Below, piece after piece: positions 12,731-63,057 of a stretch of 64,000 nucleotides of DNA. The stretch lies in the IMG/VR virus record IMGVR_UViG_3300012000_000002, positions 1 to 64,000 of that record; one strand, 5' to 3'. The translations under genes were made by a program, and so were the position numbers. The notes under the pieces are model-generated. The model saw nothing but the letters and a program-made list of their open reading frames with translations, was not told where the DNA came from and did no database searches. Every line of letters starts with the position of its first letter. Within the stretch, counting starts at the first letter, position 1. The DNA comes from a virus.

Positions 12731-13540
12731 ATGCCAGCAAAAAAAGTTAAAGACTTAATAGAGTTCAACAACAGCGTTCCCGACGACTTCAAAGTTAAAG
12801 TAATGTTGGGAGGAAGTCAAATTCGTTTGGCTGCTTCGTTTATAAACAACAAAGGTAAAACAATTTATCAACAGGATGATATTCGTAAATCATATTACGG
12901 AAAGTCTTTTGAAAATTTAAAAGTCGAAAAAGGAACTGAATCTGCTATAGAAAGATACGAAGACCCAACAGATAAACCTATGTTTCCTTGGGGTTCAGCT
13001 AGTTGCAAACCAAACAATGATAAACATAAATACAAATGCAACAACGCTTGGTTTATCAGTCTTACTGAAGTTGCTAAAGGTTATGGCCCAATGCTTTATG
13101 ATTGCTTGATTGCCAAGCTGGGTGAATATGGTTTTGGTTTAACTGCTGATAGAGGCATGGTTTCTGCAACAGCGGCAGCAGTTTGGAGCGCATATCTTAC
13201 TGATCGTCCAGATGTAAAAAGAAAAAAACTGGACTTGGATAATTCAACACCAGAAACTGAAGACGATTGTTATGCTAAACATTCTTCTATTCCTAGTTGG
13301 AATACTTGGTTAGCAGACCCAAAAAAAGGTTTGTTGCAAAGTGACGAAGAACACGAAAAAGAAGTAGAAAAAAGAAAAATCATGCGTGTGGCTGTTAACT
13401 TTGCTTATTTTGACGACGGAATCGTCACGCTTAATGAATTAAGCCAAGCCGGACTTTTGGTTGATCAAACGTTTGGATTGAATGAGAACTATGTTGTTCG
13501 ACGTTTGTATGAAAGCTTTCTCAGAGATTTAAAGCTTTGA
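12731..13540 (+). CDS. paralogue family member 5 (no leader), GNAT-like core
   Basis: The central part matches the tandem minus-strand family at 6180-9403: [19 protein letters not shown], then [20 protein letters not shown] and the ending [13 protein letters not shown]. In this copy the K-G-Y-G-P-M-L-Y-D stretch looks most like GNAT motif A, with the following strand and helix; this remains an inference because no acceptor domain is recognised. The N terminus [14 protein letters not shown] lacks the MKLYP leader, so this member may stay outside the capsid. The gene has a weak ribosome site and forms a pair with 12437. Confidence 0.65.
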
Positions 13541-13565
13541 CATTAATTTTCTTTGTTGTTATGCT
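13537..13565 (+). promoter_or_regulatory. sigma70-type promoter of thyA, probably leaderless
   Basis: TTGACA (13537-13542), 17-base spacer ending TGT, then TATGCT (13560-13565). The thyA ATG begins only six bases after the -10 hexamer, where transcription should start, and no Shine-Dalgarno exists. The message is therefore probably leaderless. Confidence 0.75.
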
Positions 13566-13571
13566 TTAAGC

Positions 13572-14369
13572 ATGACATATCATCACGTTGACCAAACGTA
13601 TTTCGAATTAATCAATGATGTTCTCACTAATGGTGTAGAAAAAACTGATCGCACTGGTACAGGAACAATCTCGGTATTCGGTAGACAAGTTCGTTATGAC
13701 TTGTCTTTAGGATTTCCTATCCTAACCTCTAAACGAGTTCACTGGAAGTCTGTTGTTGGAGAACTGCTATGGTTCCTCAAAGGTGATACCAATATTAAGT
13801 GGTTAAAGGAGAACGGTATTTCTATCTGGGATGAATGGGCAGACAAGGATGGAAACCTTGGACCTGTTTATGGTAAACAATGGAGAGATTGGAACGGTGT
13901 TGATCAGATCAAACAACTGATTCAACAGATCAAGACTAGTCCAGACTCACGAAGACTTATTGTATCTGCATGGAACGTTGGAGATATTCCTAACATGGCT
14001 CTTGCTCCATGCCATACGATGTTCCAATTCTATGTGGTAAATGGTAAACTTAGTTGCCAGCTATATCAACGCAGCGGGGATCTTGGATTGGGAATTCCCT
14101 TTAATGTTGCTTCATATGCGCTTCTAACACATATGATTGCTCAGGTGTGTGGACTAGAGGTTGGAGATTTTGTGCATACCTTTGGTGACTTGCACATTTA
14201 TTCAAACCACGTTGAAGCGTTGAAACAACAGTTGCATAGAACACCATATCCAATGCCTAGATTGATGTTAGCTAAGACTGTTACGGATATTGATGGATTC
14301 GATTTTGGCAAGGTGACATTGGATGGTTACCAACATCACCCGTCGATTAAGTTGCCTGTGGCTGTTTAA
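13572..14369 (+). CDS. thyA: thymidylate synthase
   Basis: Makes dTMP from dUMP with methylenetetrahydrofolate. Family blocks are clear: [15 protein letters not shown] (phosphate-binding arginine), [14 protein letters not shown], the nucleophile in [11 protein letters not shown] (Cys147), [17 protein letters not shown] and [12 protein letters not shown]. At 265 residues it matches E. coli ThyA (264). It works with folA downstream (15453), which regenerates tetrahydrofolate. The gene begins six bases after a strong -10 element with no ribosome site. Its last four bases overlap the convergent leader-bearing gene at 14366. Confidence 0.97.
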
Positions 14370-14816: not shown

Positions 14817-15446
14817 ATGTTTGAATTACAAATTAAAAATCCGCTGCTAGCAAAGCCAGAAATTACGGATTCTGGAGAAGTTTCGGTGAAGTATAAATCA
14901 CCAAACATTATTTACGTTAACAAGTTCAACGAAGAATCGGCTAAAGAGTTTATTGAAGCAATGGTTAGTGCCCAAAACACAGGGCAAACAATTATTCCAA
15001 TTGTAATTGATTCTTATGGTGGAGAAGTATATTCTCTTCTTAAGATGATTGATATGATTAAAGCTTCAACTGTTCCTGTTGCAACTATTTGCATGGGAAA
15101 AGCTATGTCTTGCGGAGCTGTTTTGCTTTCTTGTGGAGCAGAAGGTCATCGTTATATGGCACCAACAGGAACAGTTATGATTCACGACGTTGCTAGTTTT
15201 GCTATGGGCAAGGTTGAAGAAATCAAAGCAGATGCCAAGGAATCTGATCGTCTTAACAAGTTGATCTTTAAAATCATGGCAGACAACTGCGGCAAAGAAG
15301 TACCTTACTTTTCAAAACTTGTTCATGAACACGGCCACGCAGATTGGTTCTTGGATGCAGAAGAATGCAAGAAGCACGGAATTGTTAATCACCTTCGTAT
15401 TCCAAAGATTAAAGTATCTTTTGACGTTGAAACAACCTTTGGTTGA
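14817..15446 (+). CDS. ClpP-like serine protease
   Basis: The ClpP catalytic triad is complete: Ser98 in GKAMSCGAVLL, His123 in VMIHDVAS and Asp176 in ADWFLDAEECKKHGIVN, with the substrate strand PIVIDSYGGEV upstream. Length (209) is that of ClpP. In phages this fold serves either as prohead maturation protease or as a ClpP homologue; here it sits in a nucleotide-metabolism operon, not beside head genes, so a regulatory or host-takeover role is as likely. AAGGAG precedes the ATG, and an extended -10 TGTTATGCT lies about 30 bases upstream. It could be the enzyme that cuts the leader proteins, but T4 gp21 is a different family. Confidence 0.88.
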   Translation: MFELQIKNPLLAKPEITDSGEVSVKYKSPNIIYVNKFNEESAKEFIEAMVSAQNTGQTIIPIVIDSYGGEVYSLLKMIDMIKASTVPVATICMGKAMSCGAVLLSCGAEGHRYMAPTGTVMIHDVASFAMGKVEEIKADAKESDRLNKLIFKIMADNCGKEVPYFSKLVHEHGHADWFLDAEECKKHGIVNHLRIPKIKVSFDVETTFG

Positions 15447-15452
15447 TGTTTC

Positions 15453-15989
15453 ATGTGCATAGTCTCGATCATTGTTGCAAAAAGTAAAAACAACGTTATC
15501 GGAAACAACAACTTGCTTCCGTGGAAACTACCTTCTGATTTAAAGCACTTTAAAACTATAACCCAAAACTCTGTTATTATCATGGGAAGGAAAACTTATG
15601 AAAGCATTGGTAAGCCTCTCCCAAACCGTTTAAACGTCGTTGTAAGCACTCAAAAAAACTTGAACTTACCAAACAACGTTACAGTTTGCAATGACCCTAA
15701 TGAGGCGTTAAAAGCTTCAAGAGTGTTGTGTTTAAAACATAACATAAACAACATATGGATTATAGGTGGAGCAGCAATATATCAACAATTTATCAAACGT
15801 GCAGATAAAATGGTTATTACAACCATTGATGAAGATTGTGAAGGAGACACAACCTTCCCAGTTTATAAATCTGATTTTTGGAAATTAACAGATTGTGTTG
15901 ACTGTTATGATGTTGAAGGTTATATGCTGGATAATCCAATGCAAATCGGATTAAAATACAAAATAGAAGAATTTGAAAGGATTTTTTGA
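15453..15989 (+). CDS. folA: dihydrofolate reductase
   Basis: Reduces dihydrofolate produced by ThyA. Signature elements: SIIVAKSKNNVIGNNNLLPW (substrate loop, I-G-x-x-x-x-L-P-W), SDLKHFK with the folate-binding aspartate, VIIMGRKTYESIG (NADPH motif M-G-R-K-T-x-E-S-I-G) and NNIWIIGGAAIYQQF (G-G-x-x-I-Y). At 178 residues it matches T4 frd and bacterial enzymes. It begins seven bases after clpP with no strong ribosome site and overlaps the next ATG (TGATG), so clpP-folA-15989-16525 reads as one operon. Confidence 0.95.
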   Translation: MCIVSIIVAKSKNNVIGNNNLLPWKLPSDLKHFKTITQNSVIIMGRKTYESIGKPLPNRLNVVVSTQKNLNLPNNVTVCNDPNEALKASRVLCLKHNINNIWIIGGAAIYQQFIKRADKMVITTIDEDCEGDTTFPVYKSDFWKLTDCVDCYDVEGYMLDNPMQIGLKYKIEEFERIF

Positions 15990-22285: not shown

Positions 22286-23263
22286 ATGGAAAACGATAGC
22301 ATGAACTTTTACGATATATTAGGTTTAAACCAAAATTGTTCTCAAGAAGAAGTTAAAGCTGCTTTTAGAAGCAAAGCCATGCAATACCATCCAGATCGTA
22401 ATCCCAACAACAAACAAGCAGAAGAAACGTTTAAAAAAATAAACTCTGCATATGAAGTTCTTGGTGATCCTCAAAAGCGTATGCAATACGATCAACAACA
22501 AAATCCAAAACGCTCTGGTTTTTTTCGCAGCCAAAACTTTACTAGCCCCGAAGAAATGTTCACCAGCTTGTTTGGTAATTTTGCAACTGTTCAAAACATC
22601 AACATACCCAGACACCAAACAAACATTGCTCTTACTTTAGCAGAAACACTTAAAAATCAAGAAAAAACAATTGCTATAGCACTCAAAAACAAATGCTCGA
22701 AATGTCTTGGCACTGCTATCGGCAAAGGAGAACGTTGCAAAACCTGTCAAGGTAATGGTTGCAATTTTTGTGGTGGTTTAGGTGTTTGCTATCCTAGATG
22801 TGATTTGTGTAATGGAGCAGGATTTTCTACCGAACAAAAAGAAGTCAAGCTTGATATTCCAAAAGGATTGTTCACAAAAACTCAGTTAAACATCAACACA
22901 CCATATGGTATGGTGTTGGTCAACATAACAGTAGATTATCCATCGAACATCAAGCTTGGTGCTGGCGGTAGATTGATAATGCATGTGCCTATTCCATATC
23001 ATATTGCTGTGTTAGGTGGTGTGCATCCCGTTGAAACAATTGAAGGTGGTACCGTTAACGTTAGATTTCCTCCGCTTACAAAAGTGGATCAACTCATTAA
23101 AATCAAAGGCAAAGGTTTATATTCTGGCCCTAATGCATCAGAAAGAAACGATCTTTTCTTATCGACTTATATTGCAATGCCAGAAAACATATCTGACGAA
23201 CATAAAACAATAGTTGAGCAACTTGCCAATCTATACAACAGAGAGGAATCAAAACATGAGTGA
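22286..23263 (+). CDS. DnaJ/Hsp40-like co-chaperone
   Basis: Residues 6-70 form a J domain (YDILGLNQNCSQEEVKAAFR) with the catalytic HPD in MQYHPDRNP. After a short G/F-like linker comes a compact zinc region with four CxxC motifs (CSKCLG, CKTCQGNG, CNFCGGLGVC, CDLCNGAG), then the C-terminal peptide-binding beta domains (LDIPKGLFTKTQLNI, HPVETIEGGTVNVRFPPLT). It is a complete type-I DnaJ at 325 residues, with the zinc repeats tightened compared with E. coli (376). It would stimulate a host DnaK. An alternative ATG at 22301 (MNFYDILGL) may be the true start, since TACAAT overlaps the first ATG. Confidence 0.9.
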   Translation: MENDSMNFYDILGLNQNCSQEEVKAAFRSKAMQYHPDRNPNNKQAEETFKKINSAYEVLGDPQKRMQYDQQQNPKRSGFFRSQNFTSPEEMFTSLFGNFATVQNINIPRHQTNIALTLAETLKNQEKTIAIALKNKCSKCLGTAIGKGERCKTCQGNGCNFCGGLGVCYPRCDLCNGAGFSTEQKEVKLDIPKGLFTKTQLNINTPYGMVLVNITVDYPSNIKLGAGGRLIMHVPIPYHIAVLGGVHPVETIEGGTVNVRFPPLTKVDQLIKIKGKGLYSGPNASERNDLFLSTYIAMPENISDEHKTIVEQLANLYNREESKHE

Positions 23264-23996: not shown

Positions 23997-25100
23997 TTAT
24001 GCCCAGTAGTTATACGACCGGCGGCCACCCCGAGCAACAAAACTTGGCTTATAAGTGTTCTTGACAGGAGCAGGAGTCTCACCACCATCGCACTCAAGAA
24101 TATCGTAGTGCTCGCCAAAAAGCTTGACAATGCTATCCTTGTGCTGCTTGTTGATAGCCCACAGCTTCGATGCAGCATCATAAGAGCGTTCCCTAGCAGG
24201 GATGTTCTTGATCTCGTCAATAAGCCTACGAGTAACAGACTTGTCCCAATCAAACTTAAGCGTAAAATCGGTTGAACGATTAATGATGTGAGCTACAGGC
24301 TTTCCGGTAAGCTTGCGCTGCTCTGCAACCTTGACAGGGTTAGCAGCAATCCAAGCTTTGCACTGTTCAACAATCTCGTCAACCTTGCCATCAAAGCAAG
24401 GCCAAAACTCCATACAAGCAGCGATAAACTTCTCGTATCGAGCAGCGGGAGCCTCAAAAGGCCCACCACGCTTGCGAGGAATAACGATACCGGGAATCAC
24501 ACGCATAGCGTTGAAGCCAGCCTTGTTACTAGAGCCGGTAAGAAACAACTTGCCATTGTCAAACTTAAGCTCTGCTTCACCAGTAGAACTCTCACCAGAA
24601 AGAACACCAGCCAATCCGATAAAGCCGAGATGCTTCACAATTTGAATAAGATGATGCTTGTTATCACGATCCATCGCAAACGAAAGCATGAAATCGATAA
24701 CCTTGGCAATCTGCCTACAATCTTCACCAGAAAAATGAAACGTGAACGTTCCAGTGTTGCTGGCAGCGTTCATAGCAGATTCACTCTTTTCAAAGAGAAA
24801 ATCGTTGAGTGCAGTCCACACAGAACGCACAGCAGCGGGAAGCATATCGACCTTCACTCCGAGTGCATGAGCAGTAGCAAGGGTGAAGTTTGCAGGAATG
24901 GTCTTTGCAAAAAGGTGCGTATCCTTCTTTGCACAAATAGGACCGATACCACGCTCCCACGATGCAGGATCGGTAAGAGGCTGATTACAACGAGAGCAAT
25001 GACGCACATCGTTGCAAGAGCGAGTAATACCTCCGAGCGAGGCAACAAGCTTCGCAATCTTGCTTGAGGAGTTAGCAACCTTGGTGTTATTCTTCTTCAT
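23997..25100 (-). CDS. zinc-finger and HARP-like domain protein
   Basis: The N-terminal region has a zinc site HCSRCNQPLTDPAS followed by GIGPICAKK (C-x2-C...G-x-G-x-x-C), as in DUF6011-type phage proteins. The C-terminal part (TDFTLKFDWDKSVTRRL, then RSYDAASKLWAIN and VKLFGEHYDI) resembles the HARP domain of SNF2-family annealing helicases, here without an ATPase. It probably binds DNA junctions or single strands (inference). The gene is distinctly GC-rich for this genome (35 of 60 bases in the row at 24421). It begins six bases after a strong extended -10 box, so its mRNA is probably leaderless. Confidence 0.65.
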   Translation of the reverse strand: MKKNNTKVANSSSKIAKLVASLGGITRSCNDVRHCSRCNQPLTDPASWERGIGPICAKKDTHLFAKTIPANFTLATAHALGVKVDMLPAAVRSVWTALNDFLFEKSESAMNAASNTGTFTFHFSGEDCRQIAKVIDFMLSFAMDRDNKHHLIQIVKHLGFIGLAGVLSGESSTGEAELKFDNGKLFLTGSSNKAGFNAMRVIPGIVIPRKRGGPFEAPAARYEKFIAACMEFWPCFDGKVDEIVEQCKAWIAANPVKVAEQRKLTGKPVAHIINRSTDFTLKFDWDKSVTRRLIDEIKNIPARERSYDAASKLWAINKQHKDSIVKLFGEHYDILECDGGETPAPVKNTYKPSFVARGGRRSYNYWA

Positions 25101-25106
25101 ACTATT

Positions 25107-25135
25107 AGAATATCATACAGCCATGAATATCTAAA
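25107..25135 (-). promoter_or_regulatory. TTTAGA-N17-TATTCT promoter, leaderless
   Basis: On the minus strand TTTAGA (25135-25130), 17-base spacer ending TGA (extended -10), then TATTCT (25112-25107). The ATG at 25100 follows after exactly six bases and there is no ribosome site. The same arrangement occurs upstream of 53155. Confidence 0.8.
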
Positions 25136-51740: not shown

Positions 51741-51965
51741 TTATGGGGTTATCTTATATTCCATTCGATCTTCTTGCGGAAACGTTGAATCCCAATCATC
51801 TTCCGGTGAATCTATATCTAAATCCATCGTGTCAACGATATTCAAAAACCCTGCATCTTCAGCATCTACACCTGTTCTAGAAACTCTTCTTGGATCGTTT
51901 CCTAATGTTGGTATAGCACTTTGAGCCGATGGTCCCGTTTCAAATAACACATCAAATAACTTCAT
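51741..51965 (-). CDS. small acidic protein with leader MKLFDVLFE
   Basis: 74 residues. Leader MKLFDVLFE/TGPSA matches the family of short leaders; the mature part is acidic, Asp-rich and has no obvious fold (NIVDTMDLDIDSPEDDWDS). Such a composition resembles T4 internal head proteins. No ribosome site is clear. It lies immediately upstream of the SOD-like gene, 31 bases away, and may be cotranscribed. Confidence 0.55.
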   Translation of the reverse strand: MKLFDVLFETGPSAQSAIPTLGNDPRRVSRTGVDAEDAGFLNIVDTMDLDIDSPEDDWDSTFPQEDRMEYKITP

Positions 51966-52059
51966 ATTCTTAAATATGATTACTTCCTTCTATTGGTTAT
52001 GTTCCACAACCATACATAATCCTTTTAACATCTTCATAACAAAAAGCCATCATAATACC

Positions 52060-52346: not shown

Positions 52347-52375
52347 TTTAGAATATCGAAACAATATGGTATTCT
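52347..52375 (+). promoter_or_regulatory. TTTAGA-N17-TATTCT promoter for 52399
   Basis: TTTAGA (52347-52352), 17-base spacer ending TGG, then TATTCT (52370-52375). Unlike the other members, the gene starts 24 bases downstream at 52399 with an AGGA site, so the mRNA has a short leader. Confidence 0.8.
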
Positions 52376-52398
52376 GTTTAGAGACAGGAAACCAAACG

Positions 52399-52713
52399 AT
52401 GCAATACAAAAACAACGGGCAGGATATCATGAACAAGTGGATTGGTTGGGTGACCGATTCACAAGGTTATATGGTGTTCTTTGTTCCTCCTACCACTCAA
52501 CCTTGGGCAAAACGCAAGGTGCATGGTTTCTTCACGGAAAACCACAAAGAAGCTACATATATCAACGTTGGTTATGCTCTTCGCACGGTATTGCATTCTC
52601 GCAATATTGATGATGATTGGTTTCGTAAGCTTCTAGCTGGCGATAAGCAAAAGCTTCAAGAGCTTTTGGAAATGGGCTTGAATATGGGGATCGTCGGGCA
52701 AACTCCAATCTGA
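52399..52713 (+). CDS. hypothetical protein
   Basis: 104 residues. The ATG at 52366 lies inside the promoter spacer and cannot be used; ATG 52399 has AGGA nine bases upstream. Strand-rich N-terminal half (NKWIGWVTDSQGYMVFFVPP), then NHKEATYINVGYALRTVLHS and a C-terminal helix (FRKLLAGDKQKLQELLEMGL). No family recognised. Confidence 0.65.
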   Translation: MQYKNNGQDIMNKWIGWVTDSQGYMVFFVPPTTQPWAKRKVHGFFTENHKEATYINVGYALRTVLHSRNIDDDWFRKLLAGDKQKLQELLEMGLNMGIVGQTPI

Positions 52714-53119: not shown

Positions 53120-53148
53120 TTTAGAAAATCGTCAACGTCTGATATTCT
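53120..53148 (+). promoter_or_regulatory. TTTAGA-N17-TATTCT promoter, leaderless
   Basis: TTTAGA (53120-53125), 17-base spacer ending TGA, TATTCT (53143-53148), six bases, then ATG 53155. Upstream sequence AAAATAATC is shared with the 52347 promoter, so both belong to one class. Confidence 0.85.
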
Positions 53149-53154
53149 AAGACC

Positions 53155-53523
53155 ATGAAGAACGAAGCAAGCAACGGTTACTGGAACAACACGCATCCTC
53201 GGGCTTTCGAGAATATGATCGTGCTGGTTAAGCCATACGCACATTATGTTTCGTGTCCCTTGTGTAAGGGTCATGGTGCTTGGCATCTTGCCCACTATCC
53301 TCACACTCGTAACGGAGTTTATGCGTACTTTGACGCTAGTTGCTCGCAATGCAACGGATGGGGATACATCGATCCTAACAGCATGGATGCGAAGTGTATG
53401 CACTCGTGGCGAGAGCTTTCCAGCGATGACGCTCGAAAGCGTGGGCTGCGTACCGCTAGGTGGTGGCATAACTTTGCTTGCAAGCACTGTAACACGGTTA
53501 TGGCTACCGATTCTTCCGATTGA
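53155..53523 (+). CDS. zinc-finger protein with DnaJ-type CxxCxGxG motifs
   Basis: 122 residues. CPLCKGHGAWH and CSQCNGWGYID are two DnaJ-type C-x2-C-x-G-x-G repeats, followed by CMHSW and ACKHCNTVM, so two zinc sites are likely. There is no J domain. Proteins of this kind in phages may bind RNA or proteins; the partner here is unknown. The gene is GC-richer than its neighbours, uses no ribosome site and starts six bases after a TATTCT box. A hairpin that could terminate or act as an operator follows the stop. Confidence 0.7.
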   Translation: MKNEASNGYWNNTHPRAFENMIVLVKPYAHYVSCPLCKGHGAWHLAHYPHTRNGVYAYFDASCSQCNGWGYIDPNSMDAKCMHSWRELSSDDARKRGLRTARWWHNFACKHCNTVMATDSSD

Positions 53524-53560
53524 ATATTGCTTTAGAAAAGCAATATCGATATGCTAGAGT
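53524..53560 (+). promoter_or_regulatory. hairpin overlapping a TTTAGA-type promoter
   Basis: 10-bp perfect stem ATATTGCTTT / AAAGCAATAT with loop AGA (53524-53546) covers the TTTAGA (53531-53536). Downstream TGCTAGAGT gives a TGn-type -10 (53555-53560) followed by six bases and ATG 53567. It could be an operator or an attenuator in addition to the promoter. Confidence 0.6.
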
Positions 53561-53566
53561 AAGAAC

Positions 53567-53830
53567 ATGGCAAAGGTGATTAGACATAGGATTCCAAAGG
53601 TTCCCGACACCGATCTTGGCACAATTACGTTCAAGAACGATTATGAATGTATCGTGTTCGGAACCAAGTTTAATGCCGGTCAAACGGTTAAGGTTGGCAA
53701 GTCAATGCTTACTCCGTTTGGTGAGGCATACTACAAGGTGATGAATACAAAGGTTTGGGTAACTGCCAAAGAAGTTACTGATATCAACGTAAACATGGGC
53801 CAGCGTCGAACGTATCGTTCGGTGCTATAA
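53567..53830 (+). CDS. hypothetical small protein
   Basis: 87 residues, basic, strand-rich (IRHRIPKVPDTDLGTITFK, YECIVFGTKFNAGQTVKVGK, then VWVTAKEVTDINVNM). A small beta-barrel-like fold is possible; no family recognised. It starts six bases after a -10 element; GAG seven bases before the ATG might act as a weak ribosome site. The composition is GC-richer than the average of the window. Confidence 0.6.
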   Translation: MAKVIRHRIPKVPDTDLGTITFKNDYECIVFGTKFNAGQTVKVGKSMLTPFGEAYYKVMNTKVWVTAKEVTDINVNMGQRRTYRSVL

Positions 53831-56401: not shown

Positions 56402-56914
56402 TCACTCATAAAGAGTATCATCAGTATCTTCTTCTAAATAGCTTTCCGATTTAACTTTTGCTTTTTTTGTGTTGGCCACAAATTGTTTGCGGCCACCTTT
56501 TGATTTGCTTTTCTTTTTCTTTGCTGTAGCAGCTCGTTCTTTTTTAGACAGGGAATAAGCCTTAGAAGCAGGAAGACAACGATCTGGATTGCTGGTATCT
56601 TTACTTGAACCGCATTCACCTTTCACTTCTCCAGAAGAGCTTATGCGTTTCCATTTTTCCTTAAACCAATCACGTAAGTCTTCCATAATGATTTCTTTAA
56701 GAGCTTCATTTAACTCTAAAGATTCATTAGCTTTCTTTTTTTTCTTTCTCCAACCGCCACCTTTGCTTTTATACCATTTAGAAGCCCACGCATTAGCATA
56801 AGCACTGGGGTATTTAGTGAATTTACTTCTGGCAGCAGCTTTTGCTCTTGACCATAGCTCGGGATTTGTTGGTGCATTCTCGCCTTCAAAAAGAATATCG
56901 TCGTCGTCTTCCAT
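56402..56914 (-). CDS. DUF5872/DUF6321-like lysine-rich protein with acidic leader
   Basis: 170 residues. Residues 17-52 (NPELWSRAKAAARSKFTKYP, SAYANAWASKWYKSKGGGW) match the DUF5872 pattern, and residues 80-150 (LRDWFKEKWKRISSSGEV, CGSSKDTSNPDRCLPASKAY) the DUF6321 pattern; both are common in large phages and viruses, function unknown. The protein is very basic in the middle and starts MEDDDDILFE/GENAP, which may be a cleavable leader. It probably binds DNA. No ribosome site is strong. Confidence 0.7.
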   Translation of the reverse strand: MEDDDDILFEGENAPTNPELWSRAKAAARSKFTKYPSAYANAWASKWYKSKGGGWRKKKKKANESLELNEALKEIIMEDLRDWFKEKWKRISSSGEVKGECGSSKDTSNPDRCLPASKAYSLSKKERAATAKKKKSKSKGGRKQFVANTKKAKVKSESYLEEDTDDTLYE

Positions 56915-56993
56915 ATTGCTTAAGTATAGAAGCTAACGCTTTATTGATATTGTTGCAAAAAATAACATACCCAACAATATCAAAACCACAAAA

Positions 56994-58088: not shown

Positions 58089-58415
58089 CTATTTTCGCAA
58101 CACTAGCGGATTGTCTTTGGGATGAATCTTCCAATATTGTTCTTCTAATGGAGGTGGTTCTCCCTTGCGAAAGAACATTAATTGGCGGCCATTTGCTTTG
58201 GTGCTGGGATACACACCTATGATAACAATGTCGCCGGTATGAACAAGGCTATGACAAATAGCACAAAGGACAGCCAAGTTGTTCAAGTTATTTGAACAAC
58301 GAGAATCTGCCCTTGGGATTATATGATGAATATGAAGAGCGTCGGGATTGTTGTAACTGCAAACTTCGCAAGAAACCTTTTTCAAGGTTTCACCTGTGCG
58401 CTTCTTACGTTGCAT
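58089..58415 (-). CDS. HNH endonuclease
   Basis: 108 residues. CEVCSYNNPDALHIHHIIPR has the CxxC and H-x-H-H of the HNH fold, then RCSNNLNNLAVLCAICHSLV with N and the second C-x2-C-H, so both the zinc knuckles and the catalytic His are present. Small free-standing HNH proteins in phages are homing endonucleases or nicking enzymes; the C-terminal 40 residues may bind DNA. It overlaps the HDAC-like gene stop by 11 bases and is coupled to it. Confidence 0.85.
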   Translation of the reverse strand: MQRKKRTGETLKKVSCEVCSYNNPDALHIHHIIPRADSRCSNNLNNLAVLCAICHSLVHTGDIVIIGVYPSTKANGRQLMFFRKGEPPPLEEQYWKIHPKDNPLVLRK

Positions 58416-59259
58416 CTACATAATGCTCCAAGCAAGAACGCAAAGTGTTTTCATGCAACGAAAGAACCTTAGAGATTGGGTCTTGATAACCTCCAGCAAG
58501 ATTCCAAACAATCGGCTTTTGATGCTTGGCAGCGAACTGAAACACGATATCATCACGAAGCTTCATTTGTTCAGTGGTCAGATATCCACCAAGAGGATCG
58601 TTGATGTGAGGATCGGCACCGGCTTGATAAAGCAAGATATCACAATCACGGAAGTTTGCATTGAGATATGCAGGAAGCTTTAGAAGCCAATGATCGAAGT
58701 TATCACCGTTATGTGCAAACTCACCAAAGGTGTAGTGTTCGATAAGCTTGTTAGCTCCCTCAAACCGATTAATGATATCGTGCGTACCATTTCCATAATG
58801 GGCATCAAAATCGATGATACCGATTCGTCCAACACCCTGCTTCCAAAGCTGGAATGCTGTAACCATCAAGCCGTTGAAGGTACAAAACCCTCCGCAGCTA
58901 CTATAGCAACTGTGATGAAATCCGCTTGTGGGACTCATTGCAACAGTATCATTTACCAGCGCATATTCAGCGGCACGCAAAAAGCTACCAACCGTATAAG
59001 GCAAGCTATTCGCTACAGCCTCCAAGGTGTTACCAAACCCATTCATTCGACGCAACGACAAAATATCGTCAACAAACTTAGGATCGTGAGCAACAGCGAT
59101 TTCGTGCTTACTCACTGGCAACCAATCGTTTACTACATCAATTCGCTTGCTCTTATTGAAAAGCTCTACAACCTTTTCGGGCTTTCCTGCGCTCGGAGAA
59201 AAACTGGTGTTGGTGCTAACAGACTGCTTTGGAGAATAAAAGACCTTGAGATTCGACAT
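58405..59259 (-). CDS. histone deacetylase superfamily (acetoin-utilisation/HDAC-like) enzyme
   Basis: 284 residues. The zinc site is complete: His115-His116 in GFHHSCYSSCGGFC, Asp152 and His154 in IGIIDFDAHYGNGTHDI, Asp in YQAGADPHINDPLGG and the transition-state Tyr in NLAGGYQDP. The N-terminal A-x-x-H-D-x-x-F-V region (EIAVAHDPKFVDDILSL) is also conserved. These enzymes remove acetyl or other acyl groups from lysines, polyamines or small molecules; the substrate here is unknown. ATG 59259 has AAAGGA. The promoter TTTAGA-N17-TATTAT lies just upstream, and the gene is somewhat GC-richer than its neighbours. Confidence 0.9.
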   Translation of the reverse strand: MSNLKVFYSPKQSVSTNTSFSPSAGKPEKVVELFNKSKRIDVVNDWLPVSKHEIAVAHDPKFVDDILSLRRMNGFGNTLEAVANSLPYTVGSFLRAAEYALVNDTVAMSPTSGFHHSCYSSCGGFCTFNGLMVTAFQLWKQGVGRIGIIDFDAHYGNGTHDIINRFEGANKLIEHYTFGEFAHNGDNFDHWLLKLPAYLNANFRDCDILLYQAGADPHINDPLGGYLTTEQMKLRDDIVFQFAAKHQKPIVWNLAGGYQDPISKVLSLHENTLRSCLEHYVDAT

Positions 59260-59281
59260 ATGCTTTATTTCCTTTAGTATT

Positions 59282-59310
59282 ATAATAACACGTTTTAACA
59301 ATATTCTAAA
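59282..59310 (-). promoter_or_regulatory. TTTAGA-N17-TATTAT promoter for the HDAC-like gene
   Basis: On the minus strand TTTAGA (59310-59305), 17-base spacer ending TGT, then TATTAT (59287-59282). The ATG is 23 bases further with a Shine-Dalgarno, so this member has a leader. Confidence 0.75.
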
Positions 59311-62943: not shown

Positions 62944-62991
62944 GTTTTATTCTCCGTATATCAAACGTTAACGATAAATAGAAGAATAAAA

Positions 62992-63021
62992 AAAAACTGC
63001 CACCTTTCGATGGCAGTTTTT
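62992..63021. terminator. intrinsic terminator between the two sheath genes
   Basis: 11-bp stem AAAAACTGCCA / TGGCAGTTTTT with an 8-base loop; A-tract on one side and T-tract on the other, so it works on both strands. Confidence 0.9.
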
Positions 63022-63057
63022 CTTTTGTGCTAGTTTCGTTCTAGCGTATTAATGTAA

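Follow-up and report, generated by a model that had tools for sequence, protein, structure and literature searches.

The cI message of bacteriophage lambda begins at its AUG and is translated without a Shine-Dalgarno sequence (SD). Transcribed from PRM, it is a known leaderless phage message, and leaderless messages are held to be rare in enterobacteria; in the systems that have been studied, it is mainly 70S ribosomes that recognise their 5'-terminal AUG (PMC9031893). The TA-led bacterial genes carry a TAnnnT-type signal approximately 10 bp before the start codon and no SD, which is taken as a sign of leaderless transcription, and in some low-GC genomes the Pribnow box is preceded by TG (Zheng et al. 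2011, PMC3160421). The late promoters of T4 consist of a short -10-like element located roughly between -13 and -6, have no -35 element and depend on the phage sigma factor gp55 (PMC1524935). For the large phages phiKZ and AR9, start sites near the genes have been described, and the phage transcripts were remarked to be often leaderless (PMC5312081). A literature search on leaderless transcripts of jumbo and T4-like phages returned only AR9 and passing mentions, and in the literature searched no such programme was described for T4-related or other contractile-tail phages.

The stretch analysed here (the window) comprises bases 1-64,000 of the 119,039-bp IMG/VR virus record IMGVR_UViG_3300012000_000002 (G000), and was compared, among others, with its relative IMGVR_UViG_3300042453_005404 (G004; 260,466 bp); the records are partial and the gene calls simple and home-made. 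The genes for tail sheath, tail tube, portal and major head protein were identified in G000, a contractile-tail phage, and the large tailed phages concerned form a group about which little is known. In the phage collection, the closest portal relatives are those of Microcystis phage Mel-JY01 (38%) and Flavobacterium phage immuto (37%), and 18 kb of the window had no megablast match among known phages. The host search returned a portal relative with 50% identity in a Flavobacteriales MAG, which does not settle the host. No tRNAs were found within the window. An SD-like tetramer precedes about 60% of the called G000 genes, which makes SD-led translation the rule for this phage.

Two promoter classes abutting start codons are described below. 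Class I shares with the TA-led genes the Pribnow-like signal approximately 10 bp upstream and the lack of an SD; however, the TA-led genes belong to cellular genomes, whereas class I occurs in a phage clade, has a strong -35 and coexists with a leadered version. A single gene is concerned in lambda, as against dozens per genome with a shared promoter architecture here. The phiKZ and AR9 systems differ in their phage multisubunit polymerases and unrelated motifs, the AR9 leaders being 26-491 nt long (PMC5312081) and phiKZ giving 0 matches to the class I pattern. Leaderless genes were already known; what is apparently new, in that no description of it was found, is a programme that extends over a whole phage clade and has a dedicated, conserved architecture in two promoter classes.

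Class I promoters of the window

A preliminary description of this DNA had proposed an identical arrangement, TTTAGA-N17-TATTCT-N6-ATG, at two places, and both are present. On the plus strand, the predicted leaderless promoter at 53120..53154 has TTTAGA at 53120-53125, N17, the extended -10 TGA-TATTCT at 53140-53148 and six bases before the ATG at 53155, an arrangement that is the same in the orthologues L008 and G004:129560. It precedes, without an SD, the gene of a 122-aa zinc-ribbon protein (53155..53523, +), DnaJ CXXCXGXG-like with a match below the cut-off, which scored under the coding-score threshold of the gene caller used; it exemplifies how easily a gene that lacks an SD and directly adjoins its promoter is overlooked or mis-started. 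On the minus strand, at 25101..25135, TTTAGA (25135-25130), TGA-TATTCT (25115-25107) and six bases lead to the ATG at 25100 of a 367-aa gene with a DUF6011 zinc-finger segment (23997..25100, -). Its orthologues L006, L007 and L015 (74-80% identical) all keep TTTAGA-N17-TGnTATnCT-N6-ATG around a changed spacer, and the orthologue L016 (48% identical) keeps the spacing with TTGACC-N17-TAGAGT-N6-ATG. Two matches to the motif as proposed in the window compare with 0.03 expected from dinucleotide shuffles.

The related site proposed at thyA was likewise recovered as a class I promoter with a canonical -35 (13537..13571, +): TTGACA at 13537-13542, N17, TGT-TATGCT at 13557-13565, six bases and the ATG at 13572 of the thymidylate synthase gene (13572..14369, +), whose G004 orthologue retains TGA-TATGTT-N6-ATG. 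A dihydrofolate reductase gene lies nearby (15453-15989). The variant put forward at 53531-53560 stands with its six bases to the ATG, although it is best read with an 18-base spacer and an extended -10 TGC-TAGAGT: TTTAGA occupies 53531-53536 and the -10 element 53552-53560 of a promoter at 53531..53566 (+), before an SD-less 87-aa gene to which no function was assigned (53567..53830, +). The orthologue of this gene, G004:219053, has TTTAGA-N17-TGGTACTCT-N6-ATG.

Promoters of the same type with a normal leader had also been noted, and both are real. At 52347..52398 (+), TTTAGA (52347-52352) and TGG-TATTCT (52367-52375) are followed by 23 bases including AGGA before the ATG at 52399; at 59260..59310 (-), TTTAGA (59310-59305) and TGT-TATTAT (to 59282) are followed by 22 bases including AAAGGA before the ATG at 59259. 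The HDAC-like identity given to the latter gene was not upheld, its 284-aa product (58405-59259) having no PHROG match. Since leadered, SD-bearing promoters of the same type coexist with the others, the presence or absence of a leader is a gene-by-gene property.

Spacing, composition and conservation of class I

For an assessment free of selection on TTTAGA, G000 and G004 were scanned only for TGnTAnnnT-N6-ATG beginning an ORF of 50 aa or more, which gave 29 sites in G004, 0 of them within called genes, and 7 sites in G000 with 1 more within a gene. Over the 36 sites, a part of which are related by descent or duplication, a -35 emerged unselected (T34, T36, T25/G8, A32, G21/C7, A28, with an A/T-rich stretch before it), and TTTAGA stood at exactly N17 upstream of the -10. 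The hexamers lie 17 bases apart (once 18), with the A of the ATG after six bases, as in sigma70 promoters, where the hexamers are 17 +/- 1 bases apart and a purine at +1 follows the -10 by 6-8 bases. The -1 base was C or T at 36/36 sites against 234/390 other starts (p 5e-8), and codon 2 began with AA at 20/36 sites against 105/390 others (p 8e-4). Two of the G004 sites, G004:110764 and G004:111431, 667 bases apart, have an identical leaderless promoter and gene start, a recent duplication.

The Pribnow-like signal stands at a fixed spacing, and in four genomes the maximum falls at six bases exactly: TGnTAnnnT lies six bases from the ATG at 18/284 starts in G004, with 4 or fewer at any other distance and 0/1211 at internal ATGs, and the distance histograms of G015 and G005 show 9 and 6 starts, respectively, at the same position. 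The preliminary remark that the six-base cases lack an SD agrees with the counts, an SD-like tetramer preceding 0/6 called members in G000 against 78/124 other starts (p 0.003), and 1/18 members in G004 against 156/266 (p 7e-6).

G000 and G004 have 104 reciprocal best pairs (median identity 77%). TAnnnT at six bases was found in both members of 5 of these pairs, in G000 only in 3, in G004 only in 5 and in neither in 91 (p 1.3e-4); the shared cases are thyA and the genes starting at 25100, 53155, 53567 and 96043. In G004, all 16 matches to TTTAGA-N17-TAnnnT-N5-7-ATG have exactly six bases, and the reversed pattern gave 1. The relaxed pattern TTKA-N15-17-TGnTAnnnT-N5-Y-ATG occurs 6 times in G000, 27 in G004, 13 in G015 and 5 in G005, with no match in the reversed controls of any of the four; outside the clade it was found once in T4 and not in Mel-JY01, immuto or phiKZ. 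The more distant G005 (GC 46%) has a canonical TTGAC[C/G] -35 with the spacings unchanged.

Over all IMG/VR contigs, the strict motif had no excess (37 matches at N6, 39 at N8), and class I is therefore a feature of one clade and not a general one. The N6 matches are concentrated in one clade, and 25/37 of them begin ORFs that are 50 aa or longer (median 123), against 5/39 of the N8 matches (median 12). One clade genome, IMGVR_UViG_3300036770_008700 (122,895 bp; L139/L140), which has 13 or more class I sites, was found by the promoter motif only. The class I genes encode thymidylate synthase, a UvdE-type UV endonuclease, DNA polymerase III alpha, DNA ligase, two RNA ligases, an exonuclease, a KaiC/DnaB-like ATPase, an amidoligase and small proteins, a set that would be typical early/middle phage content.

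Probable late-type (class II) promoters and a phage sigma factor

Apart from class I, the most prominent upstream motif is TABTTA[T/A]. Because EM alone was too weak for this late motif, a fixed expression was used with spacing and SD statistics. Measured to the ATG, its spacing has a maximum at five bases, where 13 starts from three genomes fall; internal ATGs would give about 0.08, and upstream regions give 1-3 at each distance. Of the sites 3-6 bases away, 1/20 has an SD and 18/20 have a pyrimidine at -1, whereas at 14-49 bases an SD is present in 55/65. The short spacing (4-6) is retained in 5/5 G000/G004 orthologues (p 6.5e-8). In the window, a predicted leaderless promoter of this class lies at 56915..56926 (-), with TACTTAA (56926-56920) five bases before the ATG at 56914, and a candidate at 51966..51976 (-), with TATTTAA (51976-51970) four bases before the ATG at 51965. 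The pattern is common in AT-rich phages, and class II is less secure than class I because it is not distinctive in AT-rich DNA.

The absence of a class II -35 was judged by eye only, and the offset of the motif fits -13 to -6 if +1 is the ATG, an offset then identical to that of the T4 late promoters. Since these span -13 to -6 (PMC1524935) and the class II motif ends five bases upstream, +1 would fall on the A of the ATG. The consensus differs from T4, being TABTTA[T/A] and not TATAAATA, and no exact TATAAATA site in T4 has an ATG five bases downstream.

Outside the window, G000:104235-104963 (L005:2235-2963) encodes a 242-aa sigma factor with similarity to regions 2-3, which aligned to residues 374-568 of RpoD only; region 4.2 of the E. 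coli protein lies beyond these residues, and the G004 orthologue ends alike. The protein appears to end before region 4.2 and is a candidate late sigma factor, in which it resembles the T4 late system with its phage sigma lacking this region. Such a factor fits promoters without a -35, and it may be the one that reads class II.

Proposed mode of expression and its alternatives

It is most likely, on the sequence evidence, that both classes drive leaderless mRNAs. Very probably, class I is a sigma70-type promoter with an extended -10 and its +1 on the A of the ATG, class II being a less secure late counterpart. The leaderless geometry advanced in the preliminary description is consistent with the conservation in relatives, the single enriched spacing, the unselected -1 pyrimidine and the loss of the SD. 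Host RNA polymerase with the housekeeping sigma would read class I, covering early/middle genes for nucleotide metabolism, replication and repair and small proteins, and its transcripts would begin at the A of the ATG, their 5'-terminal AUG being recognised directly in a 70S-type initiation; later, the phage sigma would likewise start some late promoters at the ATG. Read-through from upstream promoters could add leaders, which would count against this explanation.

Among the alternatives, the best surviving, though still unlikely, is that the promoters are real but give leaders of 1-5 nt or starts scattered near the ATG, with translation still through the 5' AUG or through a 30S route that does not need the SD. 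The spacer between the -10 and +1 at bacterial promoters varies by 1-2 bases and the class II spacings range from 4 to 6, both of which would suit short leaders; however, nearly every class I member has a spacing of exactly six, and without exception a pyrimidine at -1 adjoins the A, the preferred start context.

It is somewhat less probable that TTTAGA is the site of a phage activator, as at the MotA-dependent middle promoters of T4, where a MotA box near -30 takes the place of the -35, and not a sigma70 -35, in which case the messages would still be leaderless. TTTAGA is more uniform than expected of a -35 and two positions off TTGACA, but it stands exactly 17 bases from the -10, the position of the box disfavours the MotA type, and it is exchanged among members for TTGACA, TTGACT, TTTACT and TTGAGA, and in G005 for TTGAC[C/G].

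Mis-assigned starts, with translation from a downstream SD-led codon and the promoter giving a normal leader, are very improbable. In a few members an SD-like tetramer does precede an in-frame start further downstream; most have none within 180 bases, and orthologous proteins align from residue 1. In several products (amidoligase, metallophosphatase, tRNA-thiouridylase-like) the Pfam domains begin at residue 2-3, and the start therefore cannot lie far downstream. On the upstream side, an in-frame stop is found within 42 bases of the ATG at 36/36 sites, and the few other upstream starts that these sites offer all lack an SD. Hardly any weight is left for chance and composition, with the best-looking -10-like hexamers picked near ATGs in AT-rich intergenic DNA: TAnnnT alone is frequent at many start distances in G000 and the strict motif lacks an IMG/VR-wide excess, but against this stand the single sharp peak, the empty reversed controls, the unselected -35 and -1 pyrimidine, the orthologue conservation, and IMG/VR matches that at N6, but not at N8, represent one clade and real ORFs.

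A further and distinctly tentative idea is that leaderless initiation forms a translational regulon, to which two unrelated promoter classes (host sigma70 and phage sigma) have been tuned by leaving selected genes without leaders, as a route left open when infection alters SD-dependent initiation. The earlier suggestion that such messages evade anti-SD-based control is speculation. Leaderless messages would escape cutting at GGAG by a RegB-like nuclease; families of this nuclease had no match in four genomes, and the control genomes were equally without a match. Since leaderless and leadered versions of one promoter coexist and are conserved across relatives, the purpose of phage leaderless translation becomes directly testable.

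Several other features were observed. A DnaJ-type co-chaperone (window 22286-23263) and a GroEL chaperonin (L004:4243-5964) are phage-encoded, and head-maturation/ATP-dependent protease families are matched by two different genes (window 14817-15446 and L003:15628-16239). Between two large convergent/adjacent genes, a strong hairpin with a T-run at 62988-63025 of the window has a terminator-like score on both strands.
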